Shown here piece after piece: positions 12,350 to 62,880 of a DNA stretch of 64,000 nucleotides. A model generated the notes under the pieces. It had not been told where the DNA came from. It searched no databases and was given only the letters and a program-made list of their open reading frames with translations. How positions within the stretch are numbered: position 1 is the stretch's first letter; the number at the start of each line of letters is the position of its first letter. Both the position numbers and the translations under genes were made by a program. The DNA comes from Coptis chinensis (taxonomy: Eukaryota > Streptophyta > Magnoliopsida > Ranunculales > Ranunculaceae): NCBI GenBank assembly GCA_015680905.1, contig CM027379.1:91969501-92033500 (forward strand), given 5' to 3'.

Positions 12350-13855
12350 TATAGGCATGCTACTAATCACAGATTTGATCAGTGTGCATCTGCCTTGAAG
12401 TGAAAGCATGCGTCCTTTCCAACTGGACAACTTGAGTTTAATTTTTTCATTGACTAAATTTGCATCTCTTGTGACTCTGCCTTGGATGAGTGGGACGCCT
12501 AAATATTTTTCTGGGAGAGTGCCCATCGCTATGCGCAACTTTTGAACTGCTCTTGCCCTCCTATCATGTGTAAAACTCCCCAAAAAAAGTTTACACTTGT
12601 CTCTATTCATAGTTTGGCCTGAGGCTTTCTCATATCTAGAAAGTAACTTTGAAATTGCTTGAAGATACCTGAGATTTCTATTGGTGAAGATAATAATGTC
12701 ATCCGCGAAAAGCAAGTGACTTGGAGCTGGTATATCCTTGACAAAGAGCATTGGTTTTATCTTGTTCCTGAGCATCAAATCATTGATACCTCTACTCAGA
12801 CAATCCTCTGCAAGAGCAAATAGGAGCGGTGACAGTGGGTCCCCTTGTTTCAATCCCCTTCCAACTGAAAAGTACCCAACAGGTCCCCCATTAAGAAGAA
12901 TAGACATGCGAGCTGATTCCATGATTTTTTTTATCCATGCGATCCAAGTGAGTGAAAACCCCATCCTTGACATGGCTTGACAAACAAATTCCCAACTCAT
13001 AGTATCGAAAGCCTGTGAAATATCCACTTTGATTGCTGCACTGCCCCCAAAACTTTTTCTATTTAGTTCATTCATGAGCTCAGATGCAAGACCGATGCTA
13101 GAGTGCACACATTTGTCTTTAATGAAACCGTATTGTTCCTTGGAGACCAGCTTGTGCATGTGTTCATTGAGTCTAAGCTGCAACACCTTTGAAATGATTT
13201 TCATAAGGAAATTACTCATGCAAATTGGTCGATAGTGCTTTAATTGCTTGGCATCCTTGCTCTCAGGGATAAGAGTGATAAAGTTTGCATTGAGTCCCCC
13301 TGGAATAGTAACATCTTTAAAGAACGATTGTACAGCAAAACATACATCGTACCTAATAATGCTCCAGCAATGATGATAGAAATGGCCCTGGAAGCCATCG
13401 GGCCCAGGAGCACTATCCGATTTCATGAGAAAAACTGCCCTTTCTATCTCCAAGAAGTCAGGAATCCTTGTCAGCATCAAGTTGTCATCGGTAGTGAGCA
13501 CTTGAGGAATCAAATCGAGGAGTTGCTCATCTTTGTGTAATTGTACGGCTTGGAACTTGTGCCGGTAGTGATCCACCACATGTTCTTTGATGCTATCTTG
13601 TGTGGTAAGGAGTGCCCCATTGTCATTAGTGAGTTCAGAAATAAGTGCAACTCCCACTCGCATCTTGTGGATGGTATGAAAATACGTAGTGTTCCGATCG
13701 TCTTTTTCATCAAAATTGAGTCTGCTTTTCTGCCTCCAAAAGGAAGCCTTGTTTTGAAGAGCTATCTCCAACTCCAATTCCTTATTCATCACTTCATTCA
13801 CCAAAGAGTCATCCTCTATGTTCAAATCTGAGAGTTTTCTGTTTTGAAGTGCTAA
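12350..13855 (-). mobile_element. L1-type LINE fragment, reverse transcriptase domain
   Basis: A single open frame (13825 to 12341, 494 codons) encodes the reverse transcriptase of a plant L1-like LINE. Visible blocks are SAPGPDGFQGHFY, YRPICMSNFLMKIISKVLQ, KEQYGFIKDKCVHSSI, IKVDISQAFDTMSWEF, GLKQGDPLSPLLFALAEDCL and the catalytic LLFADDIIIF. It reads openly upstream to about 13855 (LQNRKLSDLN). The endonuclease domain is absent at the 5' side and everything after KSVISSMPI is absent at the 3' side. The last two residues, HY, are the CAC TAC of the neighbouring CACTA terminus, so the LINE was cut there. The missing 3' half is not found beyond the CACTA left-end candidate. Coding potential is unusually intact for a fragment. 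Confidence 0.9.
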
Positions 13856-14020
13856 ATGATACGGACGGCATAGTTTCTACCGTCAGTCCATTATTTTGTA
13901 ACTTAAGTTGAATTTTTTTTGGACGGACGACACAGTTTCTGCCATCCGTCGAAATTTAACACACAGCCGGCATAAATTATGTCGTCTGTCTCCTGAACTT
14001 ATTATAGCAGCTGCTAGTGA
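13856..14020. mobile_element. CACTA-like subterminal fragment
   Basis: Repeated GACGGACG..TAGTTTCTGCCGTCCGTC-like motifs in both orientations, running to GCAGCTGCTAGTG near 14018, whose inverse is CACTAGCAGC. This looks like the end of a different CACTA-type element abutting the 5' side of the LINE. The partner end is not seen. Confidence 0.4.
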
Positions 14021-23049: not shown

Positions 23050-23372
23050 TAGGCCACGCTCAATGAAATGATCGGAGAGAGTTAAAAATTTGATATACAT
23101 TCACATATTCGTGAAAAGTAAAAGATGATTATACACGTACAAACTTCACTAACTACAACAGATATCATACGCTTACACTAAAATTAGGAAATGAAAACCT
23201 AAACCAACGATTAAGATTAATAGCACTAAAAACAATTTTTTGCAAGTACATTGAAGTCCAGTGACTTCAAATATAGTCATCTACCTTGATCAAGTTGTCA
23301 TCTATGTTGATTATTATATAGCCCTTTCGGCTTTCTCCAATTAGATTTGTGCTTTTCCTTTATATATACATC
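23050..23372. repeat. Dispersed repeat C, copy 1 (inverted relative to 46.4 kb)
   Basis: This block, from GGCCACGCTCAATGAAATGATC to CCTTTATATATACATCTC, recurs as its reverse complement at about 46412-46749 with high similarity over more than 300 bp. Its outer end GGCCACGCTC resembles the GCCCCGCTC termini of elements A and B, so it may be the end of a related Mutator-like element. Confidence 0.8.
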
Positions 23373-23401
23373 TCATTTTGTATTCTCCAATTTGATACCA
23401 A

Positions 23402-38100: not shown

Positions 38101-38475
38101 TGAGAACTGTATATGAGTTAATGGAATATATTGAACAAATAAAGACCACTAATCATGCTAGAAGTCCATATATTTCAAGCTAAATAGTTTTCGTATATAG
38201 AATTTCATCTTAATTTTCTATATAGATTCTCTATTTTCCATACATTTTAAGAAATTCACAAGAAGACAATGGCAAGTAGTGTGATGTGCTTGGTTATTAT
38301 TTACAGGTCCTCATAGGGTTAGCAAAAAGAAAATGGTAGTGGCACTTTCAGATTTCAGTTTATCCATCTATATTTTGGTTGACATAATGCAAGTCCAAGT
38401 ATTACAGTCCCTAGGACTCTTGAGTTGGCTGCTCCACAGGTTATTCTTTGAACTCAATTCGGAGTTGTCAATGAT
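32200..38475 (+). other. Anonymous region with scattered exon-like scraps
   Basis: No complete gene. Exon-like plus-strand scraps include 33063-33183 ([20 protein letters not shown]... up to a GTACC donor) and 35512-35576 (AKSFDVVKPEETIQSLLSQF, then a GTTGG donor). Others are 36050-36238 (a charged coiled-coil piece, KDVQKLKQDVEELN..., then a possible donor) and 36771-36860 (MKDSYEAKRRQAHSYYRKAE). I could not assign them. A GGTGGAGCTRTATAGTAGGTAGAG motif occurs at 34130 and again at 40387. The remainder is AT-rich. Confidence 0.3.
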
Positions 38476-38481
38476 TTTTCA

Positions 38482-38812
38482 GGCAACTGTTGAGGAAGGC
38501 ATTGTAGTTGGTGGAGGGTGCACCCTGTTGAGACTTGCAACAAAGGTTGATGCTATCAGGGATACTCTTGATACCAAGGAACAAAAGGTATATGTCGACA
38601 TATACTTCTTTTGGACTTGAATAACTTTAGTTTACTTTTTCTTTCTTTGTGTAGGAATTATGCATTGTTTTGTTATATTACTTTGCACGGTGTTCATTAT
38701 CATGGGCGGATGGCAGGTTGGGGCAGGTATTGTTAAAAGGGCCTTGAGCTATCCACTAAAGTTAATTGTCAAAAATTCTGGTGACAATGGAAGTGTGGTC
38801 ATGGGGAAGGTA
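38482..38812 (+). pseudogene. CPN60B: Chloroplast chaperonin-60 beta fragment (two exons)
   Basis: Exon 1 (38482-38588) reads [35 protein letters not shown]. Exon 2 (38716-38812) reads [31 protein letters not shown]. These are the apical-to-C-terminal stretch of plastid chaperonin-60 beta, in which EEGIVVGGG is near-invariant. The intron between them begins GTATATG and ends GGCAG. The upstream side ends ATTTTTCAG and the downstream side begins GTAAGC, so exon borders are preserved. That rules out a retrocopy and points to copying at DNA level. About 65 of roughly 600 codons remain. Substitutions at usually fixed sites (VGAGIV for VGADIV, NSGDNG for NAGVNG) suggest loss of constraint. Confidence 0.88.
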
Positions 38813-43324: not shown

Positions 43325-43440
43325 ATAAAGATCATCTCCACAAAAATTCAGCTCATTTAGAAACCTCTAACCTAGATAAAAATTGAGGTCATTTTTAAGA
43401 AAAAATCTAACGGTTAAGAAATGTTGAGGTTTTGCAATCA
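43325..43440. repeat. MITE-like fragment shared with 61.95-62.04 kb
   Basis: ATTGAGGTCATTTTTAAGAA...CTAACGGTTAAGAAATGTTGAGG recurs at about 61955-62010 with very few differences. The adjoining AACCTCTAACCTAGATAAA arm appears there in inverted order. Probably two decayed copies of one MITE. Confidence 0.6.
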
Positions 43441-43752
43441 TATATATATATATATATATACAGCCCCGCTCTTAGACGGACGTCACTTTACGGACTTTAC
43501 TTAAAAACCGAAATTTCCAAATATAATCTCGCAAAGGGTTTTCTCAAAACTCTCTCACTCGCTCCCTCTCTCCAACTTCTTTTTTTTCAGAGACAGAGTT
43601 GACAGAAAGTAGAAAAGAATCCAAGTAAAGATTTCAGTTTCAACACTGAAATCCCAGCAAAAGAATAATTACGTTTTCTTAGTCACATACTCATATTCGT
43701 TTCAATCTCCTCAGATCTCCTTCGTTTTTCGTTTAATGCTAGGAGATCTACT

Positions 43753-44043
43753 ATGACGAATTCACTCATTCGAATAGGTACCATTGAAGGGGATTTGGTT
43801 AAAAGAGCTTTAGCCACTTTGATTCGACCTTCATCACATCATCAAAGAAGAAGAGTAGCTTTTCAACCAGGAGTTGAAACTACGAGTGACAGGGAGGATT
43901 TGGAAAGAATAGTAGTTGAGTCATCCTCATGTTGTCTTGGTAGTAAAGTTCTTTTAGATGTAATTTTTGTCTTCTTTTCATGTATTTTTTTTCAAGTGCT
44001 AGAAGGCAAACTCTCTTTGCTTGAGCTTGCAAAATATACATGA
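43753..44043 (+). CDS. Open frame reading out of the left arm of element A, unknown
   Basis: 96 codons from ATG at 43753: TNSLIRIGTIEGDLVKRALA TLIRPSSHHQRRRVAF... The first 40 codons lie inside the inverted arm, so the same reading exists at the right end in opposite orientation, broken further in. The tail is hydrophobic and probably intron-derived. No family recognised. It may be a captured 5' exon rather than a working gene. Confidence 0.3.
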   Translation: MTNSLIRIGTIEGDLVKRALATLIRPSSHHQRRRVAFQPGVETTSDREDLERIVVESSSCCLGSKVLLDVIFVFFSCIFFQVLEGKLSLLELAKYT

Positions 44044-45038
44044 GCGAGAACTGAGAAGAAATTATATTTACCAGGGAGGAGTTAATGTTTGATGACATTT
44101 TCTGATGTACTTTCTAGTGTTACTTGAAGAGTTGGTTTTTTTTTCGTTAAACCAATACTTTTCATTCATGAACTAATATGATTATAGTAAGCACACAAGC
44201 CAAAACAGGTTATAGGGAACAAATAACATAACTTGAAAACAGCCAACTTAAAGACTTGGCTTGAAGCTATATAATAGAACTTTGAACCTTTTCGGAGTCA
44301 AAGGTTATATAGAGTTTGTATGTTTTGATATTCTCTTCATGAGATTTGGCTTGGTGAGTTAGGTCTTGGGGACATCTTTTGCAATGCAGAGAAACATGTT
44401 TCTGGCTTATGTGGATCATTAATGGGTCGTTACTTTTACAGTTATCATAAAGAAATGGTATTTCAATTTGTTAATTCTCATGATTAATTTATGGGATGCT
44501 AATTAGTCTTGGTGATTGGGTTGAACTGCTAATTAGTTTTGCAATTAGGTTCCTAGAACAGGTTAAGCAGGTAGAAGTGCCGCAATTTAAATAATGAATG
44601 CCAGTTTCCACATTCTAGAGGATTTTCTGTTACAGCACTTGAGGCAAATTTGGAGAACATTCAATCTGAACTTCTGAAGGACTTGAGACCCCTTGGAGAA
44701 ATGAGACCTCTTTGAGCTGCGGCTTTGTCATAAAGTGGCGGTTCGCTAATGTCTTGCAAAGACCGTGATAAGAGCACTGAGCTAAAATTTAGAGTGAAAA
44801 ATAACAAATAAGAATTCATTGGAAAATGATGTCTTCTAGACCAGCAAATATCTATCTCATACCATATGGCTTCACAAAGAAGTAGTTTTACATATCAGAG
44901 ATCTAGCTCTCTCGAGTGATATTTAAATGAAATAGCACAATACAAAATCAAACCTTTTCTTCTTATTGATATATTTTAAGGACAACACTTTACTCAACCA
45001 CTCCAATCAGCCATGGAGGTGAAGACCCAAACAAAATA

Positions 45039-45675
<637 letters not shown>

Positions 45676-46411
45676 CTAACTCCTTCAAAAAAGAATCGTA
45701 GATACAAGCCTAACAACTAGATAATACACAAGTATGTCTATTTATAAAAAAATATATTTTCTGCCACAGTTTCTACTTGGAAAAGTGTCCTTTCATCTTT
45801 GATCTCCTCTTTTGTTCATCTCTTCATCTTCAATTGCTTGGACTTGGTAGATGTATCTCCGGCTGGGGAAAACTGGGAGAACAGAAAAGATTAAGGGTTC
45901 GAAGAAATAATACAAACGAACCTATTTCTTCTATATCATAAAGATTCAATATGGTTGAAAAGCTGGTTGAAATAATACAAACGAACCTGGTTGAAAAGCT
46001 GCTCTTCTTCTTTGATGATGTGATGAAGGTCGAATCAAAGCGGCTAAAGCTCTTTTAACCAAATCCTCTTCAACAGTACCAATTCGAACGAGTGAATTTG
46101 TCATAGCAGATCTCCTAGCATTAAACGAAAAACGAAGGAGATTTGAGGAGATTGAAACGAATATGAGTATGCGACTAAGAAAATGTAATTATTTTTTTGC
46201 TGGTGTTGAAACTAAAATCTTTACTGGGATTCTTTTCTACTTTCTGTTAACTCTCTGTCTCTAAAAAAACCAGAAGTTGGAGAGAGAATAGGAGAGAGGG
46301 AGCGAGTGATAGAGTTTGGAGAAACCCTTCACGAGATTATATTTGGAAATTTTAGTTTTTAACTAAAGTCCGTAAATGGACGTCTGTCTAGGAGCGGGGC
46401 TATATATATAT

Positions 46412-46749
46412 ATAAAGATGTATATATAAAGGAAAAGCACAAATCCAGTTGGAGAAAGTCGAAAGGGCTATATAATAATCAACATAGATGACAACTTGAT
46501 CAAGGTAGATGACTATATTTGAAGTCACTGGACTTCAATGTACTTGCAAAAAATTGTTTTTAGTGCTATTAATCTTAATCGTTGGTTTGGGTTTTCATTT
46601 CCTACTTTTATTGAAAGCGTATGACATTCTGTTGTAGTTAGTGGCATTTTGTTGTAGTTAGAGAAGTTTGTACGTGTATAATCATCTTTTACTTTTCACG
46701 AATATGTGAAGGTATATCAAATTTTTAACTCTTTCTGATCATTTCATTG
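46412..46749. repeat. Dispersed repeat C, copy 2 (between elements A and B)
   Basis: Reverse complement of 23050-23372, running from the TA-rich flank of element A up to TGATCATTTCATTGAG, where element B begins. Its final GCGTGGCC terminus is missing here, and so are the outer dozen bases of B, so a small deletion appears to have joined the two. Confidence 0.8.
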
Positions 46750-47261
46750 AGACGGACATCCGTAAAACCCGTAAAACGGACTTAATTAAAAAGTGAAATA
46801 TCACTCGAAATATACTTTAAAAATCGGGATCCTATTTTAGAAAACCCCAAACCTCACTTCTATTCCCTCTATTCTCTCTCAATATTACTGCGACTCTCTC
46901 CCTCCTGGTACTCTCTTTCTCTATAAAAGAGTTTCTCTTTTCTCTCTTTCTCATCTTATAAGTCTAAACCAAAAAAATTGACCGGCTTTACCTATACAAG
47001 CTTTGCGAATCTCAATTACATGTAAGTTTAGTTTTTTTTTTTGCTAACATCAATATCCATTATTGCATCTTCAAAGAAACCAACTGTTCATCATTGTTTG
47101 TGCTTGCTTTAGTAGTTACCAGTTTCAAGTTCACACATTAGTGAGTCTTTGCGGGTTATGCCAGTAGCTTGGTTACATAGTTCAATATTGAAAATAGTGA
47201 TGGGTTTCGATCACCACCATTGTGTATATATTGTTCTCTATTTATTGTGATGGTGGCTCAG

Positions 47262-47570
47262 GGAAATTGAAGACAGAATGTATTGACTGGTGGGTCGAGG
47301 ATCTCTCAGTTTTGGGGATTGATTTCTATTAGAGAGTGATATCTGCGTTAAGAAGATCAGGTGTTCATCCTGACAGCATTATTACGTCTTTAATGCATTA
47401 TGCTCAGACGTCACTGGAGGGTATTGGAAAAAATGAAGTTTAGGATCAAACAAAGATAAACCCACAATGCGGAATGGCTCAAAATGAACCCAAGGTGATT
47501 ATGGAAATTCTTGTAAGTCTTCTTCCATCAGAGAAAAGCACTTCCATTCCTCTGAATTTTCTCTTTGGAA
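47262..47570 (+). pseudogene. NPH3-family fragment in the left arm of element B
   Basis: Reads DWWVEDLSVLGIDFY, then a TAG, then RVISALRRSGVHPDSIITSLMHYAQTSLEGIGKN and, after a second stop, INPQCGMAQNEPKVIMEILV SLLPSEKSTSIPLNFLFG. This is the start and middle of the NPH3 domain of BTB/NPH3 proteins, plant adaptors of CUL3 ubiquitin ligases in phototropism and organ development. The BTB domain is absent. The same sequence lies in the right arm in opposite orientation. Confidence 0.85.
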
Positions 47571-47992
47571 ATCAAGTTACTAATGTGAGCTTCTTCGGAT
47601 TGGCTCAAGGCAATGCAAGAGGGACAGTTCCCTCGGCAGGGATTGCAGTTTACAAAGTCTGTTGGGAAGAAGGATGTGATGCACAAGATATTTTGTCTGC
47701 TTTTGATGATGCTATTAGTGTTAGTGTGGACATACTTTCAGTCTCATTAGGCGGAGAGAAGTCAGATGACTATTTGATTGATCCAATCGCCATCGGTGCA
47801 TTCCATGCCATGCAGAATGGGATCCTCACCTCACAATCTGCTGTAAATAATGGTCCTGAACAAGGATCAGTTTCGAGCATTGCTCCTTGGATCCTAAGTG
47901 TTGCAACGAGCAACACTGATCGGAAAATCATAGATAAAGTTATCCTCGGTGACAACACCACTTTAGTGGTGAGAATGACTCGTTGCATTTAA
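47474..47992 (+). CDS. Chimeric open frame: NPH3 piece fused to subtilase piece
   Basis: One uninterrupted 172-codon frame. Residues 1-35 (MAQNEPKVIMEILVSLLPSE KSTSIPLNFLFG) are NPH3 domain. From about residue 36 it is a cucumisin-like subtilisin protease fragment: NQVTNVSFFGLAQGNARGTV PSAGIAVYKVCWEEGCDAQDILSAFDDAI..., with IAIGAFHAMQNGILTSQSAVNNGPEQGSVSS covering the substrate-binding Asn region. The usual N-G is altered: SAGNSGP of the family is SAVNNGP here. The catalytic Asp, His and Ser parts are outside the piece, so it cannot be a protease. The join falls at GGAAAT, shared by FLFGN and the family's AGN, suggesting microhomology. A CT-rich, TATA-containing arm lies upstream. Whether it is transcribed is unknown; two stops interrupt the NPH3 reading just before its ATG. 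Confidence 0.6.
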   Translation: MAQNEPKVIMEILVSLLPSEKSTSIPLNFLFGNQVTNVSFFGLAQGNARGTVPSAGIAVYKVCWEEGCDAQDILSAFDDAISVSVDILSVSLGGEKSDDYLIDPIAIGAFHAMQNGILTSQSAVNNGPEQGSVSSIAPWILSVATSNTDRKIIDKVILGDNTTLVVRMTRCI

Positions 47993-47999
47993 GTATACG

Positions 48000-48850
48000 T
48001 AGTTCTAGTTTTTTCAATTGTTACTATATTGTTTGGTCGTTTGTTTTTCTGTTTGGTTAGGCTGGGAGAATGGAAAACCGAAGTTGGCAGTGGCAGTGGC
48101 AGTGGCAGTGGGTGGCAGTGACAATGGCATGGTAGTGGCAACGGTAATGACATGGTAGTAGCAAGTTGAGTATTCTGGATGCTCAACTTGAGTGGGGGAA
48201 GTATTAAGTTGGTATCGTTGGTAGTATTTGGAAGTTGGCAGTATTGGTAACATTTGGATTTCCATTGGTCTGTCCATAGAGAATAAGGCATTGTAAATTT
48301 CTTCAGTAGACATGTCTTCAGTAATATATTTTCAGTTTTAGTAATGATTGGATGAATATGATGTTGGTACGTTCTCATCTAAGTCAGGATTTGAAGTAGT
48401 AAAAACTTTTTTTTAAAAAGTCAATAATATAATTTCCTATATCTTCTCAAGAGTAAAGCCAGGTATCACTTTCATCTGTTAAAAAGTTGTTTTTGTATAA
48501 TAATCAAGTTGTCAGAAAATTTATGACTTGTTATTATTTTTAGCTAATAATCAAGTGTGTAACAAAAATCGCACTAGCAACAAAGACTACTGGCAAAGAC
48601 AGTTTGAAGCCCATCTTGTACTAACTGCTAGAATAATGTTGAAGTATATATATCAAATTCAGAATGGATATGATACATTTGCAGCACTTGAATGCAGAAT
48701 GGATATCAAATCAAATGGGCTTCTTCAATGATGTTTGGACAAATAAAAACTAGAGTTGCGAGACCAGTAAATTTAATGTCTCAATTTCCTTTCCGAGATC
48801 AATCTGTTTTCAAACACTTCAAAAGCTCTCATGAACACAAGAAATAGAAG
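48000..48850. other. Spacer in element B with a short (GGCAGT)n run
   Basis: After the chimeric frame comes TTTTTCAATTGTTACTATATT and a GGCAGT repeat at 48083-48122 with related GGCAATGG/GGTAGTGG units to 48170. The rest is AT-rich with no gene. Confidence 0.5.
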
Positions 48851-48856
48851 TTTCAC

Positions 48857-49853
48857 TCATCTAGGATGACACACAACACCATCCCCACAACTACCAAAGA
48901 ATAACCTTTTTAGGCAGACTTGCTCCAAGTATAGAACCCGCACTGCCATCTGGACTAGAAAACGATCATTCTGAGCAACATGATTACAGGCCTCTTGAGA
49001 ATGCTTCTGGCAGTCAATGAACTTGCATAGCTTCTTACACTCGTTTTCAGTTAGCATTGGATGAGCCTGAAAAGAGAGTTACAAGAGATTTCTGTTCATA
49101 TTGAAAATGCACTAGGTGTTAGGACTTAGACCAAGGTCCATGATTTTGAGGGAGCCATTTCTGTATATATCTCAAGTCTCAACCCTGATCCCTGAATCAA
49201 GCGAGATAGTTCTCATTCATCCACAAAAATCAAATGTCTCCTATAAAAAGGAAAGTAGATTTCCTACAACCAGAGTTCAGAGACACGACTTAACCAACAA
49301 CGCATTGGAAATGGGCTTGTCCAGTGTTCAAAAGCATTGTAGCAAATATTGCTGAAAGGAATTGGATGTGAGGGACATAATACGCTAGTAACGACAAAAT
49401 GATCAAGAGAGGATGCAGAACGATGTGAAATACTCCACCATTTGGTAGTTCACACCAGAGACATCCAGAAAATGAACTTGCAAATTAATATGATTCATGA
49501 TCCTAAAAATCCACAGAACATCTTGCTTATAACGAGATCTACTAGTCTTCTGAGTTATACAGAGGTTAATTGTATATAACATAAACAAAAGAGTTGGGTG
49601 AGTTACCAGCACGTAATGAAGGAATAAGTAAGTCATCAAGCAAAACCATCTCTAACCGGAAACCAATCCTCCTTTCTAGCTCAAGCTTGCATGCAACTGT
49701 AGCAACAACCGTGATCGCCAATCTCAGCATTCTAAAGAGAAAATTCAGCGGAATGGAAGTGCTTTTCTCTGCTGGAAGAAGACTTACAAGAATTTCCAGA
49801 ATCACCTTGGGTTCATTTTGAGCCATTCCGCATTGTAGGTTTATCTTTGTTTG
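48857..49853 (-). pseudogene. NPH3-family fragment, middle and C-terminal exons, in the interior of element B
   Basis: From high to low coordinates: MAQNEPKVILEILVSLLPAE KSTSIPLNFLF (49827-49735) continues to RMLRLAITVVATVACKLELE RRIGFRLEMVLLDDLLIPSL (the conserved SLLP and DDLLIP blocks). A poorly readable stretch follows near 49560-49410. After a splice acceptor (CTTTTCAG at 49070) comes AHPMLTENECKKLCKFIDCQ KHSQEACNHVAQNDRFLVQM AVRVLYLEQV, the C-terminal NPH3 block with the conserved Tyr-for-phosphorylation region not reached. With the right-arm pieces near 59.9 and 55.75 kb this gives most of one NPH3 domain on the minus strand. Several breaks and missing exons make it non-functional. Confidence 0.85.
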
Positions 49854-50264
49854 ATCCCTGTTTCGACCCCCACCTACGTGGCAAGCGTCCATTAGTAGGG
49901 GTCTCTATTTTATTCGTTTAAACGACAGGGCTAAAGCCTAATTTGCAATACCATTGATCTATATACAGGCACATTAACTCATGTGTCTAAGGCTGAACCT
50001 TAGCCATATGACTTGCCACTAATGTACATTGATTTATGTCCAGATTCATTTCTTATCAAAGAGATAATTATCAGTTGAGAGTTATATTCAATCACAATTA
50101 CTTAAGCTACAAGAATACTAGAGCTACAAGGAGTCTCCACTCTACCTATATAAATATCAAACTATTTTTCATAAAGAACTACGTTCTTGAAACTTGATCC
50201 CATCGATAATTTGGGTACGTAGGCAACCGCAAGGTACAGTCTCATCATTCTCCCGATCACCATC

Positions 50265-50858
50265 TGTAGAGAAAATCATTTCTCTCGCGGTCGAGATACG
50301 CCAGCCCAGAGAGAAGCGCGACTTCGGCGCCACTACTCCGATGTTTTAACTCAAAGCAGCGCCAGCTCATGGCTTTAATAATAGGCGCCGGCCAGAGTAG
50401 TAAGGCGCCCAGCCTTCGGTCTTTTTGCGGGCCTCGCTTCACAAGAACGCGATTTTTGGTTTTGGTATAAAAACAAAATCAGTTTTTGGAAAACCTAACT
50501 TTTCCAAAACCAAGAAAAGAGAGTGATTACAAGAGAACAATTCTTTGTGAGTTGAGTGTTCATTCTTTGTGAGTGAATTGAGAGAGACTTGTAATCTGTT
50601 ACTCGGACATCTATTAAAGCTTGGAACTTGCGGTGTGGATGGATGGCAAATTGCGAACCACGATATATCTCGTCTTGTGGTTTGTTCTTCTTTTACATTG
50701 ATTGTTTTATTTCATATGCTTGTTATTTGATATTGAGAAGTGTTGGGATATTGCTTGGAGGGTGTTGAAGTCTTGTCTATTGAGAAAGATCAATCTTTGT
50801 GTAGGATTGATCCGTTTGGTGTGGGTAACGTTGTTTCCATGATTAATTATTCACAACA
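50265..50858 (+). repeat. Copia 5' LTR
   Basis: 594 bp, TG...CA ends, GC-rich beginning, GGTATAAAAAC TATA-like box near 50464. Followed two bases later by the primer-binding site. Confidence 0.92.
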
Positions 50859-53800
50859 ATTGGTATCGGAGCGTAGGTATACGACCTAGGATTTTGAGTT
50901 TAGTACTAAAAATTTGTGTAGACAAGGTGTTCGATTAAATTCCGAGGTGAAATTGTTTCTTTTGGGTTATTGTGTGTAACTTGAAAGATGGCTCCCAAGA
51001 TGTCAAACGCAAGGTTTGAAGTAGAGAAGTTTAATGGGAAGAATAACTTTGGGATTTGGCAAGTCCAAGTAAAGGACATCCTTATCCAACAAGGTTTGCC
51101 AAGGCCTTGAAGGGATTAAATCTAAGGCGAAAGTATGAGCAATGATGATTGGGAAGAGTTCGATCTTCAGGCTTGTTCATCAATCCGGTTATGTCTTGCT
51201 AATGAGGTCATGTATAGTGTGATGGGAGAAAATACGCCGCCGCGGTATTTGGCTCAAAACTAGATCTATGTATATGACAAAGAGCATGACGAACAAGATG
51301 TACCTTAAGAAGCGTCTTTATCGGTACATGATGGTCGATGGTTCAACGATGCAAGAGCACGTTAGTGAGTTCCGTCGACGTCTAGCGGATTATTTGAATG
51401 TTGGTATGAAGATGGATGATGAGGATCAGCGGCATGTTTGATATTCTCCTTGCCAGAAAGTTATGAGCATCTAATGACTACATTCATGAACAGAGAAGTC
51501 GTCGATCTTGATGAAGTTCAGAGTGCACTTCTTTCTTATGAGTTGATGAAGAAGACACGTGTAGAGAATAGCATTGATGCAAGTCGGGGGCTAGTGGCAA
51601 GAGGAAATTGGAACGAACGTAATTATTCAAGTAATGATAATTCTAGGTCCAAGTCAAAGAAGCCTTTAAAACATGTACAAGATTGCTACAATTGCAATGA
51701 AAAAGGACATGCACGAAGTAATTGTCCTCACCAAGAAAGAGAACAAAGAGAGATGGTCGAGGAAGAAAGGTAAGGCAAAATTTGAGGCAAATTATGCTTC
51801 AGGCTCTGAAGAGGATGAGTTCAGTCTCTGTGTGTCCACACAAGACTATATGACCGAGAGGTGGATTCTTGATTCCGGATGTTCCTATCATATGTGCCCG
51901 AATAGAAAGTGGTTTACTTCTTATGAGAGCATTGATGGCGGTTCTGTTTTAATGGGTAATGACGTTGCTTGTAAGACGGTAGGAATTGGAACTATACGGG
52001 TCAAGATGTATGATGGTGTAGTGAGGACTCTAACCGATGTGAGACATGTTCCTGAGCTAAAGAAAAGTCTTATTTCTCTTGGTACCTTGGATTCCAAAGG
52101 CCACAAGTTTGTGAAGGTGGAGTCCTAAATATTGTTCATGGCTCTTGGTTGTTATGAAGGGTCAAAAATATGGAACCTTGTATACTACGATTGGTAGAAA
52201 TGCGGTGATAGGCGATGTAGCGATGGGTGCATGTAGTAATGATTCCGAGTGCACTAAGATGTGGCATATGCGTTTAGGGCATATGAGTGAAAAGGGTTTG
52301 TCCGAGTTATGCAAGCGAGGGTTCTTGAAGAACTTGAAAAAATGAGCATTGCGTCTATGGGAAGCAGTCAGAGTCAAGTTCAAGTCAAAGCAAGCACCAC
52401 GACAACAGGCATCCTTGATTATGTGCATACAGATGTTTGGGGACCCTCCGTGGTGGCTTCAAAGGGAGGTAACCGCTATTATGTCTCATTCATTGATGAT
52501 CATACTCGTATGTGTGGGTGTATATGATGAAATCGAAAAGATGAAGTGTTTGAGACATTTAAGAAGTGGAAGGCAAGGGTTGAGAATCGCACAGATAGGA
52601 AGGTAAAGACATTACGGTCTGACAATGGTACTGAGTATACCTATGGACCTTTCCAAGAGTTAGTTTGCAGGCGAACAGGAATTGCCGCATTAATTTGGAT
52701 GATCGGGGCACGCCAATGCGCCAGAATGGAATGGCAGAGAGGATGAATAGAACTTTGCTTGAAAGAGCAAGATGTTTATTGTCTAATGCCAGTCTAGGCA
52801 AAGAGTATTGGGCAGATGCAGTGTCCATGGCATGTTACCTGTACAATAGGTCACCAGTACCAGCTATAGATTGCAGGACACCTTATGAGGTGTGGTCAGG
52901 TAACCCAGCTGATTATAGTATCTTGCGAGTGTTTGGATCGACAGCTTACTACCATGTGAGGGACAGCAAGCTAGATCCTAGAGCTAAGAAGGCCATATTC
53001 TTAGGAAGCCAAATGGGGTAAAGGGATACAGATTGTGGTGTCTAGAAGCCCACAAGTTCCTGGTCAGCAGAGATGTTACTTTTGATGAGACTTCCGTGTT
53101 ATCTTTAAGTAAGCCGGAAGTAGCTGGGCAGAATGGTGAGTCTATAGAAGTTCAAGCTACTGAGCTTGAGTTGTCTGATGCAGCAGATGACTGGTTAGAT
53201 CATGATGAGGTACCAAATCATGGAACCACAAAGAAAGAAGGAAGAAGAGCAAGAGCATCCGCGAACTTGTAGTGGCTGACCCCAGGCCCAGAGACAAGTT
53301 AAAGAAGTGCACAAGTATGGGCACGAAGAGGTGAAAACACTATGGTCGTGGATTTAGTGGCATATGACCGAATATCGAAGATGATGAGCGGATAGCTTCA
53401 AGGAAGCCGTTAGAGATGCTCATTACTGAGATTGGTTGGTAGCTATGCAAGCAGAGATGGAATCTCTTGATAAAAATCACACATGGGACCTAGTTTTATT
53501 GCCAAAGCGGCAAAAGGACTATCGGCGATAAATGGGTGTTGAGAGAAAGAAAGGTCCTTCCCCGAGTCCGACAAATCGGGTACAAGGCAAGAGTGGTAGC
53601 AAAGGGTTTTTCACAGAAGGAAGGAGTTGACTACAATGAGGTATTTTCCCCGGTGGTCAAACATACGTCCATTCGTGTGTTATTAAGTTTAGTTGCTCAC
53701 TTATTTGGGAGTTAGAGCAACTTGATGAAAACTGCTTTCTTGCATGGGGACTTGGAAGAAGAGATCTATATGAGACAACCTGAAGGGTTTGTCGTTGCTG

Positions 53801-55080
53801 AAAGAAGATTATGTATGCAAATTGAATCGGTCACTGTACGGGTTAAAGCAATCGCCCAGGCAATGGTACAAGCGCTTTGACACATTCATGATGCAACATG
53901 AGTACACCCGAAGTAAGTATTGGGCGCGGTCTACTTTAGAAGGCTTCGTGGTAATGACTTCATCTATCTCCCTGCTTTATGTGGATGACATGCTTATTGC
54001 TTCCAAAAGCATGGTGGAGATAGACAAGTTGAAAATCTCAACTTAGCTCTGAGTTTGAGATGAAAGACTTAGGTGGAGCCAAGAAGATACTGGGCATGGA
54101 GATTGACAGAGATAGGAAGAAGCGACGGATAGTTGTATCTCAGAAGAAATACATTCAGAAAGTAATTTCTCGATTTGGTATGGAGAATGCAAAGTCGGTT
54201 TCTACTCCTTTAATTTTGGGCATTTTAGGCTTTCAGCTAAGTTCTCTCCTGTTCGATTGGAGGAACAAAAGCATATGGCTAATGTTCCTTATGCAAGTGC
54301 CGTGGGTAGTTTGATGTATGCTATGGTGTGCACACGCTTGAGGACATTTCACAGGTGTTAGTGTTGTGGCAGGTATATGGCAAATCGGAAGCGGCATTGG
54401 GAGGCGATGAAATGGGTACTAAGGTACTTGAAGGGTACTTTGGATGTGGGATTAGCTTATGGTGGAGGCACTTGTTATGTCGGTGGGTTTGTGGATTCGA
54501 TTATGCGGGTGATCTAGATAGGCGGACGATCGACTTCGGTTATGTGTTTATGATGCATGGTGCACGGTTAGTTGGAGGTCTATGCTACAGCTGATTGCTC
54601 TATCTATATACTACCGAGGCGAGTATATGGCAAATGGCAGGAGGCAGTGAAAGAGGCACTATGGCCGAGGTCTTCTAGATGATTTGGGTATTGGAGCGTA
54701 AAGTGTTGTTGCGTGTATTGTGATAGTCGAGTGCTATTCATTTGGCGAAGAACCAAGTTCATCATGGTCGGACCAAGCATATTGATGTCCGATATCACTT
54801 TATACGGGATGTCGTTGAGGATGGTGATGTAGCACTTGAGAAAGTAGACACCCATGACAACCCCGCTGATATATTTGCGAAAGTTGTCACCGGAGTTAAG
54901 TTCCAAACTTGTTTGGACTTGCTCCAAATCCTACATGTTTGAAAGAATATGTGGGCATAGCCCTTGAGGCGGTTGATTTCGCGAAGTCTTCCTTGCCGGA
55001 GGTGTTCCTACTTGGATGTGATCTTCTTTGGATGTGTTCGGGCTTGGTTTTATGTGTTAAAACCTCACCGAGGTGGAGAA

Positions 55081-55647
55081 TGTAGAAAAAATCTCTTTCA
55101 CGGCCGAGCGCCAAGGCCAGAGGGCGCGACTTCGCACCACTACTCGATGTTTTAGCGGCGCCAAAGAAAGCGGCGCCCTCGCTCATGGCTTTAATAAGCG
55201 CCAGAGAAATTTCGAGTCTTTTATGGCCTCGCTCAGAAACGCGATTTTGGTTTTGGTATAAAAACAAAATCAGTTTTTTGGAAAACCTAACTTTTCCAAA
55301 ACCAAGAAAGAGAGTGATTACAAGAGAACAATTCTTTGTGAGTTGAGTGTTCATTCTTTGTGAGTGAATTGAGAGAGACTTGTAATTTATCTGGGACATC
55401 TATTAAAGCTTGGAACTTGCGGTGTGGATGTAGGCAAATTGCGAACCACGATATATCTCGATCTTGTGGTTTGTTCTTCTTTTACATTGATTGTTTTATT
55501 TCATATGCTTGTTATTTGATATTGAGAAGTGTTGGGATATTGCTTGGAGGGTGTTGAAGTCTTGTCTATTGAGAAAGATCAATCTTTGTGTAGGATTGAT
55601 CCGTTTGGTGTGGGTAACGTTGTTTCCGCAGTTAATTATTCACAACA
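55081..55647 (+). repeat. Copia 3' LTR
   Basis: 567 bp. Very similar to the 5' LTR over its last two thirds, much more different over the GC-rich first 180 bp or so. Confidence 0.92.
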
Positions 55648-56079
55648 CCATCACTTTTCTAACTACTTTTCTACGTTTTTCGTCTCTTTCGTCACCACTT
55701 AGTATTTTGATCATATTTGGTCGAAATAATCCCAAACTTCATTTTTTCCAATACCCTTCAGTGACGTCTGAGCACACTACAAGAATACTGAGTATTAGCC
55801 ACGACTATTAACCGTGGCTAAAAAGCTTTTGCCACGGTCATTAGCTGTTGCACGACCGTGGCCAATGCGCCTGTGGCTAATCTGTTGCCATGGATTTTAG
55901 CCGTGGCCAAAACTTGTTTTTTGCCCACAGTTCTAAGCCGTTCCAAGGGCCGTTGCAAATGACTCTTTTGCCACAGCTAGCACTCGTGGCTAATGCTTAT
56001 ATGAGCCGTGGTGGTTTACTTTGAGTATGTTGGATGTATTGTTTGGCCACGGCTTAAGGCCGTGGCAAATGCTTTCAAT

Positions 56080-57360
56080 TGTTTTAAAAAAAAATTGTTC
56101 CAGCAGCACCTTTATATCACTTGCAGGCTGCAAGCATATCATAAGATCTACCATTTCAATAAAAACCCGTGAGAATCATAATTCTCCACAATTTAAATTT
56201 TCATATACAGTACTTAACATAAATATTTTTAAATCAAAGCAGGTCCAATTAGGAATCCAAACTTACATAAAAGAACATAATATACTACTAACTACTCTTT
56301 AAGAAATTTGAAAACTATTAAGAATCTCCAAAAAAATGAAAACATCACCATTTATAGTGCCTAAACTCGATAGACCGCATTTCTAGCCATCTAAACAACA
56401 CCTCAACTGTGTTGGATCAAAGTCTGCATACTTAGGTTCACTTGGTTGTACCTCATCATCATGTGTCCTACCTTAGAGAGTAGGCTTTGAAGACTTAGCT
56501 ACAGCCATATAAAAGCAACCATTAGAACTAAAACGACACACCATTCGCACAGAAAATCGTGTGATATAGCAAATATTAATTGAAAGAGAAAGTACTAACT
56601 TAACCATTACATGTTGTAAAACGTTGTACAAATTAATCCCTGCCAAACGCTACATCGTAATTAGTCGTTGACTCCAACTTCTTTGCTTCTAAGAAACTGC
56701 TCATTCTAAGAAAAGTATAAGTAGAGAAAGTACTAAAATAGTCACTAGAAAATCATCTAACTAACAAAACACATTAATGTTGAAGTTCCATCAAAAGAAG
56801 ACAAATTATTTAATCGGATACATGAGGCAGATTATTTAATTGTATACATGAGGTACGAATGTATGGTAATCATGAACTCATACATTATCTAAATAAAAGC
56901 TAACTAGCTTATACATTCAATTCTAATTAAAACAACGTTCAAGGTTTATAAAAGTTCTAAATACTTACCTGAAGCTAGCTTCACTCCTAAGAAAACAGCT
57001 ACATTGGTATTTGACTTTGATATATGGCTAAACCCAACAAACTACATACTCAGTAAGAGAACAGATCTCCAGTGGGTCTTATGCTAATTAAGAAACTTAT
57101 TACAAAGTATGACAAGGCGGCTTCTACCACGAAAGCAAAAAAAAAACGTATAAATAAATAAAATAAATAAACATAATTTCTCTATCAGCACTCTTGTATT
57201 GATAGTAAATAATTTAATAATATCAATACACATGAATAATTTGAAGAATAATAGTTCAACAAAGTAGATACACAATAATATAATATTGATAAAACAATAA
57301 TTTGCTACACGCATTAAGTCATTAACAACTTCATACTAAACAATAGAAATGACAAAAACA
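56080..57360. other. CACTA interior, no gene recognised
   Basis: AT-rich, without readable coding sequence beyond short open stretches. Confidence 0.5.
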
Positions 57361-57486
57361 ACCGAAATCATCTACACCAACTACAAAAATAATAATAATA
57401 AACACCATAGATAGCAGACATGAACATAGACAAACATACGAACATAACAATGGACTTAAACGTTAAACAAGAAGTAAAAAACATAC

Positions 57487-57631
57487 CAAAGTCTCGAAAC
57501 CCAGTTTGTGGAAGCATAGGAGAACATTGAGACTTGAAACTCAGTACATTAACAGGTGGGCACTCTCTATTAATGGGTTTATCGTTCTTAGTTGCATCTT
57601 CTTTTTTGTATACTGAAGCACAAGAGCCCAT
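57487..57631 (-). pseudogene. First exon of an At3g27210-like protein, captured
   Basis: ATG at 57631 reads MGSCASVYKKEDATKNDKPI NRECPPVNVLSFKSQCSPML PQTGFRDFG and runs into a GTATGT donor. The N-terminus MGSCAS fits an N-myristoylation site, and the SFKSQ..P...FRDFG layout resembles plant proteins of the At3g27210 type, whose function is unknown. Only this exon is present. Exon border retention indicates capture from DNA. Assignment is by remembered motif, so moderate. Confidence 0.55.
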
Positions 57632-57659
57632 GTTTACTTATTGCACTTATGAGTTGGTT

Positions 57660-57795
57660 ATGATGATACTCTTTTCATAACAAGAGTTGAAAACAAAGTG
57701 GGCTTATCAACTGAGCCTAAATCACCATCAGACCCTCCATTTTGGGAAAAGCCTCCATTCGATCCATATCCACCTAATAGCGATTGATTATCCAT
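57660..57795 (-). pseudogene. Short exon-like open frame, unknown
   Basis: ATG at 57795 reads MDNQSLLGGYGSNGGFSQNG GSDGDLGSVDKPTLFSTLVMKRVSS and a stop. The Gly/Asn/Ser-rich start looks like the N-terminus of a host protein, perhaps a transcription factor. It lies just upstream of the MGSCAS exon on the same strand. Family not recognised. Confidence 0.3.
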
Positions 57796-58282
57796 ACTAA
57801 GTACAATATAAATAGGAAATAAGGAATTTAGGTACTTCTATTGCATCTTACTACAAAGTTATAGGTGTTTTAAACTTGCACTTGGGGTGGTCCATTTCAG
57901 AGCAGATCTCCCAAACAGTCTTTGCTTCTTTTTTACAATAAATATTTGCAGCTCAACCTCCTGGGCCAGTTTGTTTCCCATTACAAAAAATGTAACAATG
58001 CTAAGTAGTTTGAGCTCCAACTTGTTGATTCATTTTATAATTAATTATGTTTAAAAAATAAATAAAAAATAAAAATGAGAACCCTTTGAACCCAAAAAAA
58101 AAAAAGTAATTTTCACCAAAAGGAATGAACCGAAATAGAGATTAACTTAACAAGGATTTTTAAGAGGCAACAAATTTGGCACTTGATCCAATCTCTGCCA
58201 ACTCTTTGGGGAACTAGTAAACAGTACCTAGTCCGTCCATTGACGATCAGCTTCAAAAAATTTGGAGGTATACAGTGAAGCT

Positions 58283-58483
58283 TCACGAGCTACAAAAAGG
58301 AACTCTAATCAACACACAACCATCACGGAGACTATAATCAGCAACCACCAAAATAAAGTTTTTGATACCAATGACGAATTCTCTATGCAGAAACTTGCAA
58401 GGATCAAGAGTATGAGGATTGGAAATAAAAATCATTAGCAACAGCAAAGCAACAACTCCCAGTGCGAGACGATTCCTTATCAA
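58283..58483 (-). pseudogene. Exon-like piece with a membrane anchor, unknown
   Basis: Reads MIRNRLALGVVALLLLMIFI SNPHTLDPCKFLHREFVIG..., a positively charged start and one strong membrane helix, as in type II membrane or secreted proteins. No family assigned. It lies on the same strand as the other captured pieces. Confidence 0.3.
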
Positions 58484-59037
58484 TGTCCAAGAAGTACTAA
58501 AAGGAAATCAAGAACTCATATATGGCGATGTTGTGAATACCGACCTTAGCTTTAGGTTGAACTTAAATATATCAAATAGACACATACACCCTCTCACAAT
58601 ACACCCTCTCACAGTCTGGCAGTGCCTAGAAGTGCCATGCATATCATGTCTCTTAGAGATCCAATTTCTAGATCAAGCATGGTTGTATTCGTAGCTGCCA
58701 TTTCCAAGCACAACAATGCTCAGCACTTTAGAAGTTCTTTGAGCTACTAATCATTGAGTATGTACGTACTTATGTACTTCCAATCAATGAGCTAGGGCTT
58801 TCACCTAAGAGATAAATGTCACTGGATTGGCTAAACCTATTTAAGAACCAAACAACAAGCTTAATCCATATTCCCTAACACCAACAATTGACCCTTTTAA
58901 AGAAAGTATGTCCATGTTTGTTTGACAAGTTAATTTCATCTCGCTTGGATTGTAACGATTATTGCAAAATGACAATCATCAAAGATGTGAAATACCATAC
59001 TGTACATTCCTTTACATGAATAATCATTATTACATAC

Positions 59038-59215
59038 CTTGTGATGAATTTTGCTGCTGATATCCAGATGATTTCCTGGGGGTCGCAAGACCAATGCGCA
59101 TCTGCCTACTAGAACAATATTGTCCATTCATCTCGATCAGTCATTGCTTGTGACCTCTCATTATCATCACCAAATCTCACGAATCCATAACCCTGATTGA
59201 TTGATTTATTGATGA
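59038..59215 (-). pseudogene. RBP45/47-type RNA-binding protein fragment, captured
   Basis: Reads GYGFVRFGDDNERSQAMTD (RNP1 motif of an RRM). After a one-base frame slip it continues EMNGQYCSSRQMRIGLATPRKSSGYQQQNSSQ to a GTATGT donor at 59038. This order (RNP1, EMNG..C.SR.MRI, ATP.K, then a Gln-rich start) is typical of the second RRM of plant RBP45/RBP47 poly(U)/poly(A)-binding proteins. Only part of one RRM remains. It is flanked by CACTA subterminal sequence, so it is a captured fragment. Confidence 0.75.
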
Positions 59216-59555
59216 GGGGGGTTTTGGGGGAATGTACTTTTTCATTGACTAATTTCGAAACCCACACCAATACAGAGATGGAAAAAAAATGCACCTTGAT
59301 GCGAAAAACGATACGCTGAATAGACCTGTTTACATCAAATATAATAAACAGTGAATGAAGTCATGTCATATGAACATAATTTATCAAAAATATCTTAAGA
59401 AAAACACTACCTTCAAGGCCAAATTGGTAACCCTAACCGTAAAAAGTAAAATTGTAAAAGGGAAAAGGGAGACATGAGGAAAAAGAAATGGGGGAGTGAG
59501 AAGAGATACGACCTTATACCCACTTCTTCTTCTTGCTGCCCATATCTATGATGGC

Positions 59556-59557
<2 letters not shown>

Positions 59558-59590
<33 letters not shown>
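59558..59590. repeat. (GA)n microsatellite
   Basis: About 16 GA units inside the CACTA element. Confidence 0.97.
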
Positions 59591-59593
<3 letters not shown>

Positions 59594-59850
59594 ATTGGTC
59601 GAATATTTCGCAATGATACATTTCATTTCATGCTCCTTTATTTTTTCAAGAGATCAACGGATACAAAAACACAGATTTACATCAACGGTTCAAAGAAAAA
59701 GAAACATGACCGTGGCCAAAAACTCGCCTAAACTCAAACCACCCACGTAATTGGCCACGGCTAAAGACCGTAGATACTCTGCCACAGCCTTAGACCGTGG
59801 CTAAAGCTAACTTGTACCTGTGACCAAAAGTCATTTTTCTTGTAGTGGCA

Positions 59851-60745
59851 TAATGCATTAAAGACGTAATAATGTTGTCAGGACGAACACCTGATCTTCT
59901 CAACGCAGATATCACTCTCTAATATAAATCAATCCCCAAAACTGAGAGATCCTCGACCCACGGTCAATTACATCGGCGTCTTCAATTTCCTTGAGCCACC
60001 ATCACAATAAATAGAGAACAATATATACACAATGGTGGTGATCGATACCCATCACTGTTTTCAATATTGAACTATGTAACCAAGCTACTGACCCATCACT
60101 GTTTTCAATATTGAACTATGTAACCAAGCTACTGGCATAACCCGCAAAGACCCACTAATGTATGAACTTGAAACTGGTAACTACTAAAGCAGGCACAAAC
60201 AATGATGAATAGTTGGTTTCTTTGAAGATGCTACAATGGATATTGATGTTAGCAAAAAAAAACTAAACTTACATGTAATTGAGATTGACAAAGCTTGTAT
60301 GTGTAAAGCCGGTCAATTTTTTTAGTTTAAGCTTATAAGATGAGAAAGAGAGAAAAGAGAAACCCTTTTATAGAGAAAGACAATATTAGTCTCCTATTTT
60401 TTCGTAATTAGCCAAAGAGTTTTACAAATATTAGAGACTCTGTGAATGCTCAAAAAATAGAGTCAAGAGAGTACAACTATAATATATATCTAAAGAAGAG
60501 AGAAAAGAGAAACCCTTTTATAGAGAAAGAGAGTACTAGGAGGGAGAGAGTCGCAGTAATATTGAGAGAGAATAGGAGCAAGGTTTGGGGTTTTCTAAAA
60601 CCCTTAGTGAGAGAGAAAATATGAGAGAGGTTTGGGGTTTTCAATTTTTAGGACCCGATTTTTAAAGCCTCCGTGAGTATATTTTGCGTGATATTTCACT
60701 TTTTAATTAAGTCCATTTTACGGATGTCCGTCTGTGAGCGGGGCT
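59851..60745 (-). repeat. Right arm of element B with NPH3 fragment
   Basis: Reverse complement of the left arm. The NPH3 reading (VEDLSVLGIDLY-like, RVISALRRSGVRPDNIITSL) lies at about 59970-59851 and continues across the CACTA insertion at 55771-55734. A 44-bp local duplication (60048-60135) and extra CT/GA-rich sequence at 60380-60520 are absent from the left arm. Confidence 0.85.
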
Positions 60746-60758
60746 ATATATATATATA

Positions 60759-61942
60759 CTAGTTTGTAGGCCCGTGCATACGCACCAGCTCTTTGAAAAT
60801 ATTTTGATTTTTTTAAGAAAATTGGGACTACCGTTTTAGTTGCTAACCCATTTTAATTTTCTAACAAATTGTTTTAATTAAGTTTTAAAAACCCTTTTTT
60901 TCAATTGGGAGAGAGATCATGTTTTAATAGGAAAATAATTCCCGTTTTAATTAGATATGCTAGATTTACCCTTTTCAATAGGGGAGGAATTTCCATTTTA
61001 ATAGGAAAATGATTCCCGCTTTAATTAGAAGTGCTAGAATTTGTTTTAATATGAGAGAAATTTCCTTTATAATAGGAGAGGAATTCCCATTTTAATAGGT
61101 GATGATGTGAAATTTTAATAGAGCTCGAAAAATACCCCTTGTCGGAGCTTTAATATTAAGACCGACTCTTTTAAAAATTTGCTCAACAATCATAACAAAT
61201 TGTTATTCCTGTTTTCGTCGCTAACCTATTTTAATTTCCTAATAAATTGTTTTAATCAAGTCTTAAAAATCCATTTTAATTTCTTAACAAATTGTTTTAA
61301 TTATGTTTTAAAAACCCGTGTTTTTTAATTTGGGGAGGGATACCATTTTAATTTGGAAATAAAGAGTTTTTATGCTACTATTTGAGTTTTGGTTTTAAAA
61401 GGAAAGGAGATTCCCGTTTGAAGTTGGATTCTAAATGGAAAAGAGTTTCCTGTTTTAAGTTAACTATTAAGTTGATGATGTGGAATTTTAATAGAGCTCG
61501 AAAAATACCTCTTGTGGGAGCTTTAATATTAAGACTAGCTTGTAGACCCGTACATATGCACCGGCTTTTTTGAAATATTTTTATTTTTTTTAGAAAATTG
61601 GGACTACCGTTTTAGGCGCTAACCTGTTTTAATTTTCTAACAAATTGTTTTAATTAAGTTTTAAAAACCTTTTTTTTTTCAATTGGAAGAGAGATAATGT
61701 TTTATAAATAGGAGAATAATTCCCGTTTTAATTAGATATGCTAGATTTTCCCTTTTCAATAGGAGAGAAATTCCCATTTTAATAGAAGAATGATTCCCAC
61801 TTTAATTAGAAGTGCTAGAATTTGTTTTAATAGGAGAAGAATTTCCATTATAATAGGAGAGAAATTCCCGTTTTGATAGAAGATAACGTAGAATTTTAAT
61901 AGAGCTCTAAAAATACCCCTTGTGGGAGCTTTAATATTAAGA
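60759..61942 (-). mobile_element. Tandem array of three short Helitron units
   Basis: On the minus strand each unit starts TCTTAATATTAAAGCTCCC. Units 1 and 3 end with a hairpin (GGTGCGTATGCACGGGCC-like) about a dozen bases before CTAG, followed by T, as plant Helitrons do. Units are 61942-61535 (408 bp), 61534-61162 (373 bp, 3' hairpin lost) and 61161-60759 (403 bp). They are joined head to tail with no gap: CTAG of one touches TC of the next. No coding capacity. The run lies directly beside the right end of element B. Confidence 0.8.
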
Positions 61943-61948
61943 TATAGA

Positions 61949-62060
61949 TATAAATTGAGGTCATCTTTAAGAAAAAATCTAACGGTTAAGAAATGTTGAG
62001 GTTTTCCAATCATATTTTATCTAGGTTAAAGGTTTTCAAATGAGTTAAAAATTTTGTAGT
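61949..62060. repeat. MITE-like fragment related to 43.33-43.44 kb
   Basis: Shares the GAGGTCATCTTTAAGAAAAA...AACGGTTAAGAAATG block. Here it is followed by an inverted AACCTTTAACCTAGATAAAAT-like arm. Ends not defined. Confidence 0.5.
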
Positions 62061-62586: not shown

Positions 62587-62616
62587 TCCGATGCTCCCTG
62601 TTTGGGGTTAAGTTTA

Positions 62617-62871
62617 GGGCTTTTTAGACTTTAGTCCAACGCATAGTTGGTTTATTATACTTTGGTCCATAAAATCTTGAATATTAGACTTTAGTCCTAA
62701 TTCTGTTTGTTCAACTCAGTTGACTAACAATCAACGTGGTCAATCTGCTTACATACAACTGAGTTAACTAACGGTGAACAAACAGAACTTGGACTAAAGT
62801 CTAATATTCAAGCTTTTCTGGACCAAAGTCTAATAAACCAACTATGCATAGGACCAAAGTCTAAAAAACCC
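62617..62871. mobile_element. Palindromic Mutator-type MITE, 9-bp target duplication
   Basis: Arms of about 110 bp (GGGCTTTTTAGACTTTAGTCC against GGACCAAAGTCTAAAAAACCC) form a long stem of 255 bp in total. TTAAGTTTA occurs directly outside each end (62608-62616 and 62872-62880), a perfect 9-bp duplication as in Mutator-like elements. No coding. Confidence 0.9.
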
Positions 62872-62880
62872 TTAAGTTTA

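Follow-up and report, generated by a model that had tools for sequence, protein, structure and literature searches.

A decayed DNA transposon of Coptis chinensis with NPH3 gene sequence in both of its inverted arms

When a plant transposon has a piece of a host gene within each of its inverted ends, can it act on that gene, or is it only the decayed product of gene capture? The question is raised by a 14-kb element, here called element B, which begins at position 46750 of the window, the whole 64,000-nucleotide stretch of Coptis chinensis contig CM027379.1 that was analysed. The initial annotation of this DNA described B as a Mutator-like element with coding sequence of an NPH3-family gene in opposite orientations in its two terminal inverted repeats (TIRs), and proposed that a read-through transcript could fold into a hairpin of several hundred base pairs, much as in Mu killer (Muk) of maize. 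NPH3 is a plant family. Our analysis supports B as a TIR element and confirms NPH3 sequence in each arm as well as inside; the element is broken up by three nested insertions, its reading frames are interrupted, and its left end is truncated. B is probably a decayed non-autonomous Pack-type DNA transposon with captured NPH3 and subtilase pieces, and most likely it has no present role other than that of any ordinary silenced transposon.

The inverted arms were identified by BLASTN comparison of the window with itself. This comparison paired 46914-47403 with 59848-60380 on the minus strand (86% with gaps, E 0.0), 46769-46948 with 60496-60723 in inverted orientation (72% with gaps, E 4e-37), and 47443-47570 with 49730-49857, also inverted (96%, E 6e-54). 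A 22-base arm motif occurs twice, both times exactly, where shuffled sequences lead one to expect 0.00 occurrences at up to three mismatches. The terminal 14-mer at the arm tips is by itself weaker evidence, as it has four matches at up to three mismatches (the two at the ends of B being exact) against 1.62 expected, and 8 of 100 shuffles reach four. After in silico removal of the nested insertions from the right arm, the 821-bp left arm was aligned with a right arm that runs from 60733 inward to 49730 as one contiguous piece, and 765 of the aligned sites were identical, with 13 gap runs making up 266 columns. About 9.9 kb of B consists of later insertions, and arithmetic gives a length of about 4.05 kb for the element without these insertions and the spare copies of their target site duplications (TSDs).

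The gene content of the element was examined by translating 46700-50265 and 55800-60748 in six frames and scanning the products against Pfam at an E-value of 0.01. The hidden Markov model (HMM) for NPH3 (PF03000) matched both TIRs in opposite orientations and also matched sequence past the arm (Table 1), in agreement with the initial annotation on both points. About 285 bp of the left arm are NPH3, and about 535 bp at its outer start lie outside the match. The minus-strand matches form a set that reads inward from the right end; profile positions 44-61 coincide with insertion sites, and no match to positions 131-229 was found in the scanned stretches. Within this set, the right arm ends on its inner side with the 49730-49857 portion of the fragment covering profile positions 62-130. 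The HMM match of the C-terminal piece is borderline, at 27.1 bits where the cut-off is 27, and is backed by its place and strand. Absent from the initial annotation is a subtilase fragment, into which the left NPH3 piece passes in frame after profile position 91, giving a fused open reading frame (ORF) at 47444-47992. Intron-like sites remain in the captured sequence, namely an AG before AHPMLTENE, a GT after LRAG, and a GT after the subtilase piece, suggesting that the pieces are genomic rather than cDNA in origin. The left NPH3 fragment had 0 matches when PDB sequences were searched, and a viral_contigs scan with the fused NPH3-subtilase ORF matched a pattern at two stretches, neither of which was confirmed as a relative.

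Judged by their reading frames, the NPH3 copies look dead. Both arms have a stop codon in the NPH3 frame at the same place (FY*RV and LY*RV), the left arm has a second stop where the right arm has tryptophan, and the right copy has indels just upstream. As the first stop is shared, either it predates the copying of one arm from the other or the donor already had it. Across 92 codons, or 276 bp containing 62.3 synonymous and 213.7 non-synonymous sites, the two arms differ synonymously at 2 codons and otherwise at 9, one of the latter being the second stop of the left arm. Protein constraint on the arms was rejected on these counts and on the shared stop.

The right arm is cut by three later insertions, each with an exact TSD: a CACTA-type element, an insertion that appears to be solo-LTR-like (LTR, long terminal repeat), and a Copia-type LTR retrotransposon inside the latter. 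These split the arm by 5.87 kb and 4.07 kb. The CACTA class was called by the ends and the 3-bp TSD, and the Copia label is a by-eye judgement from ORFs in an element that also encodes a retroviral SH3-like domain (52635-53021, E 2.2e-10). Between the two interruptions, the block at 55729-55781 pairs with 47394-47446 of the left arm at 48 of 53 positions, the final seven bases lying in the CACTA end. The LTRs of the Copia-type element differ at 22 of 549 sites with gaps set aside (Kimura two-parameter distance 0.041; 86.7% identity with gaps, of which there are 24 openings in 62 columns), compared with 39 of 804 sites for the arms of B. By our estimate from binomial errors this difference is not significant, and the arms would be about the same age as the Copia-type insertion or slightly older; since the insertion cuts the arm, it is necessarily the younger of the two. 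Within the nested CACTA-type element, an ORF at 59109-59360 reads GYGFVRFGDDNERSQAMTD, which by eye resembles an RNA-binding protein of the RRM type and may mark a Pack-CACTA; Pfam gave no match for the suspected RRM fragment.

Table 1. Features of element B, its nested insertions and its sibling in the window
Feature	Position	Strand	Description
Left inverted arm of B, outer terminus truncated	46750-47570	+	95.1% identical to right arm over 804 sites
Outer right inverted arm of B	59848-60747	-	44-bp and ~150-bp internal duplications; terminus GAGCGGGGC adjoining (TA)n
NPH3 (PF03000) fragment in left arm	47285-47569	+	Profile 1-91 of 258, E 3.2e-18; two in-frame stops
Subtilase (Peptidase_S8, PF00082) fragment	47570-47992	+	Pfam E 6.1e-8, best stretch from 47612
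NPH3 C-terminal fragment	48986-49072	-	Profile 230-258, E 4e-6; directly after AG acceptor-like site
NPH3 fragment	49611-49858	-	HMM match 49823-49611, profile 62-130, E 3.2e-17
NPH3 fragment in right arm	59838-59960	-	Profile 3-43, E 1.3e-7; match extends 10 bp into CACTA end
Putative solo-LTR-like insertion	49859-55728		TSD ATCCC; 482 bp without inner element and its TSD copy; TG...TA ends, short inverted termini
Copia-type LTR retrotransposon inside 482-bp insertion	50265-55647	+	TSD CCATC
Middle piece of right NPH3 arm, between two insertions	55729-55774	-	Pairs with left arm
CACTA-type element in right arm	55775-59847		CACTACAAGAA ends, TSD GCA
Sibling element A	43453-46410 (about)		Same outer terminus as B; own long arms; OMP decarboxylase-like fragment inside

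Long TIRs are found not only in B but also in a sibling element, A, with which B has an outer terminus of roughly 60-70 bp in common. The motif GAGCGGGGCTATATATATA has three matches against 0.01 expected, one at the right end of B and one at each end of A (one of the latter two with a mismatch), and the same three ends carry AGCCCCGCTC, which the truncated left terminus of B lacks. The arms of A are identical at 391 of 422 sites (92.7%) in an alignment that takes in the TA flanks. The right inner arm of A has no likeness above chance to the left inner arm of B, the best local alignment score being 15.0 (59 of 75 sites) and the best of 50 base shuffles reaching 15.5. Because the two elements share a terminus and their inner arms are unlike, each of them would have extended its arms with different DNA. 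A encloses a piece resembling the C-terminal part of an OMP decarboxylase (UMP synthase-like), which scores 24.8 bits against a curated cut-off of 27 (E 2.3e-5). Both arms of A also contain a coding-looking ORF that starts with MTNSL...; a known domain for it is unsupported, as Pfam gave no match. A 336-bp repeat (46416-46751) separates the end of A from the truncated left end of B and adjoins the latter; a second copy is present at 23059-23373, the two being 90% identical and mutually inverted.

How NPH3 came to occupy both arms can be set out along the following lines. A Pack-type element, most likely Mutator-like, would have captured genomic DNA from two genes, one of the NPH3 family and one encoding a subtilase. 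The longer NPH3 copy is at the right end and continues into the interior, and the left arm has a shorter one that is joined to the subtilase piece. Capture may have taken place at one end and been followed by copying to the other, whether by gap repair, by template switching or through an inverted duplication of the end. B is now decayed and would behave as an ordinary silenced transposon. Gap filling and template switching are supported as capture routes in an animal Pack-TIR study (PMC8277862), and Wang et al. 2016 report that about 5-10% of MULE-derived genes (MULE, Mutator-like element) draw on at least two parents (PMC4858842). Several points weigh against this reading. No TSD is legible for B, its left terminus being truncated, and the ends of A sit in (TA)n. 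No transposase domain that would tie these TIRs to Mutator was found in the stretches scanned with Pfam. B is seen in one copy only, with which more than one order and direction of capture would agree. In addition, an acceptor-like AG precedes the left NPH3 exon (its right-arm counterpart is mutated) and a donor-like site follows the subtilase piece, which leaves room for a spliced chimeric transcript.

The most serious alternative, which we regard as possible and do not favour, is that the arms arose as in Muk, by inverted duplication of one end consisting of a TIR and the adjacent NPH3 sequence, and not by capture into an existing pair of TIRs. The right NPH3 sequence continues past the arm (to profile position 130, then at 230-258) and the left one ends at 91 where it joins the subtilase piece, and this asymmetry agrees with such a duplication, as do the stop common to both arms and the derivation of both TIRs of Muk from one end of MuDR (PMC3440606). 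The same picture, however, would come from ordinary TIR homogenisation or gap repair, and A also has long element-specific arms, so arm extension was not a single accident. A second alternative, that B is a foldback element or a member of some TIR superfamily other than Mutator, appears unlikely. It draws on the illegible TSD, the lack of a transposase domain in the scanned stretches, the intact termini adjoining (TA)n, and the gene pieces held in the long inverted repeats of the Harbinger element Turmoil-1 (PMC2572040); against it, arms of 0.4-0.8 kb together with captured gene pieces in two siblings, that of A being below the Pfam cut-off, are best matched by MULEs. Mutator-like elements are defined by a TSD of 9-11 bp, which is illegible at the truncated B and would lie in (TA)n in A, and by TIRs shared with autonomous elements that encode a MURA-type transposase; the description of B as Mutator-like is plausible on arm length and gene capture.

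Read as a Pack-type element, B can be placed among systems already described. The TIRs of MULEs are typically 100-500 bp long (PMC3310237), and one sentence of Ferguson and Jiang 2012 describes acquired sequence inside extended MULE TIRs (PMC3310237). Like the Pack-MULEs of that account, B has long TIRs, host gene fragments (NPH3 and subtilase by HMM) without a transposase of its own, and acquired DNA within its arms; unlike them, it offers no TSD or transposase link, holds two gene pieces of which one is in both arms, and is heavily invaded by nested insertions. Sela et al. 2008 found gene pieces in both inverted terminal repeats of Turmoil-1 of C. elegans (PMC2572040), where, as in B, host gene fragments (two in Turmoil-1) sit in inverted repeats at both ends, of about 760 bp in Turmoil-1, and the captured piece is described as being without purifying selection; Turmoil-1 differs in being a Harbinger element that has a transposase of its own and lives in an animal genome. 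No paper joining NPH3 with Pack-MULEs, or NPH3 with terminal inverted repeats and transposons, was found in our literature search. Gene capture into extended TIRs has thus been described before, and B is best read as a further case in line with the published ones.

The comparison with Muk holds in part. Like B, Muk has a TIR and adjacent gene sequence as an inverted duplication (PMC3440606). Unlike B, it contains transposase sequence in arms of about 1.3 kb and silences MuDR (PMC3440606), whereas B has a dead host gene fragment, one arm broken by insertions where Muk-type arms are long and uninterrupted, and no known silencing. According to Skibbe et al. 2012, silencing by Muk was accompanied by short antisense transcripts and its failure by read-through sense transcripts, a hairpin contribution from minor longer transcripts being left possible (PMC3440606), so that the parallel with a read-through hairpin is not a simple one.

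The pairing capacity of the arms was assessed from perfect short matches and from predicted folding. A perfect partner in the right arm exists for 190 of the 801 21-mers and 142 of the 798 24-mers of the left arm, and for 55 of 290 and 35 of 287, respectively, within 47261-47570. A hairpin of several hundred base pairs, as proposed in the initial annotation, would require transcripts of about 13 kb crossing the Copia-type and CACTA-type elements, and this proposal is weakened accordingly; what can pair without crossing these insertions is 128 bp, all of it NPH3, formed by the innermost BLASTN pair around a loop of 2159 nt. The predicted fold of 47430-49872 has an energy of -746.8 kcal/mol; shuffling the inner arm in 12 versions of this stretch gave a mean of -603.3 (standard deviation 3.3). 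In the prediction the two arms form 128 pairs with each other across the 2.16-kb loop. A transcript of about 2.5-3 kb begun inside the left arm could, on this prediction, physically form an inner hairpin of about 128 bp. TATA-like CTATAAAAG boxes, noted with no chance control, are present in both arms and point inward, and the plus strand of 47000-49900 contains one AATAAA, at 48742, and no ATTAAA.

That B is a natural RNA interference locus, in which a left-arm transcript to about 49.9 kb forms the NPH3 hairpin of about 128 bp and diced small interfering RNAs (siRNAs) lower a host NPH3-like gene, is improbable: the low fold energy with its 128 pairs, the TATA-like box at 46922, and the small RNAs acting on donor genes that a 2026 review describes for captured sequences in maize (PMC13317346) would fit it, but only 25 perfect 21-mers are present in the inner pair, the AATAAA falls in the loop, and the rest of the arm is set apart by insertions of 4-6 kb. 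We consider it very improbable that siRNAs of this hairpin lower an NPH3-like gene of the host, which would allow copies of the element to tune phototropism-type signalling. Any small RNAs produced by the arms would for the most part be heterochromatic siRNAs of 24 nt directed at the element itself; in rice, 24-nt small RNAs on MULE TIRs and internal regions were reported by Wang et al. 2016 (PMC4858842).

Other repeats were noted around these elements. To the right of B, 60740-62015 consists of units repeated at spacings of about 0.4 and 0.8 kb, and its edge (61945-62015) is 96% identical to a stretch at the left end of A (43373-43443). At 62610-62878 lies a short inverted repeat with 104-nt arms (89%) and a 61-nt gap, resembling a miniature inverted-repeat transposable element. 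Further transposon remains at 3289-5271 and 12341-13876 gave matches to Transposase_21 (tnp2) and DUF4216 and to a reverse transcriptase that by eye resembles that of a long interspersed nuclear element. An ORF at 38285-38620 has a weak match to Cpn60_TCP1 (E 3.7e-4, below the cut-off) and is perhaps part of a host chaperonin gene.

Element B clearly exemplifies how the inverted ends of a DNA transposon in a plant can take up gene sequence. Comparison with its sibling A suggests that the two have no more in common than an outer terminus of roughly 60-70 bp, the lengthening of the arms being specific to each element. If the inner hairpin were transcribed, B would provide a testable path from gene capture to the silencing of a donor gene.

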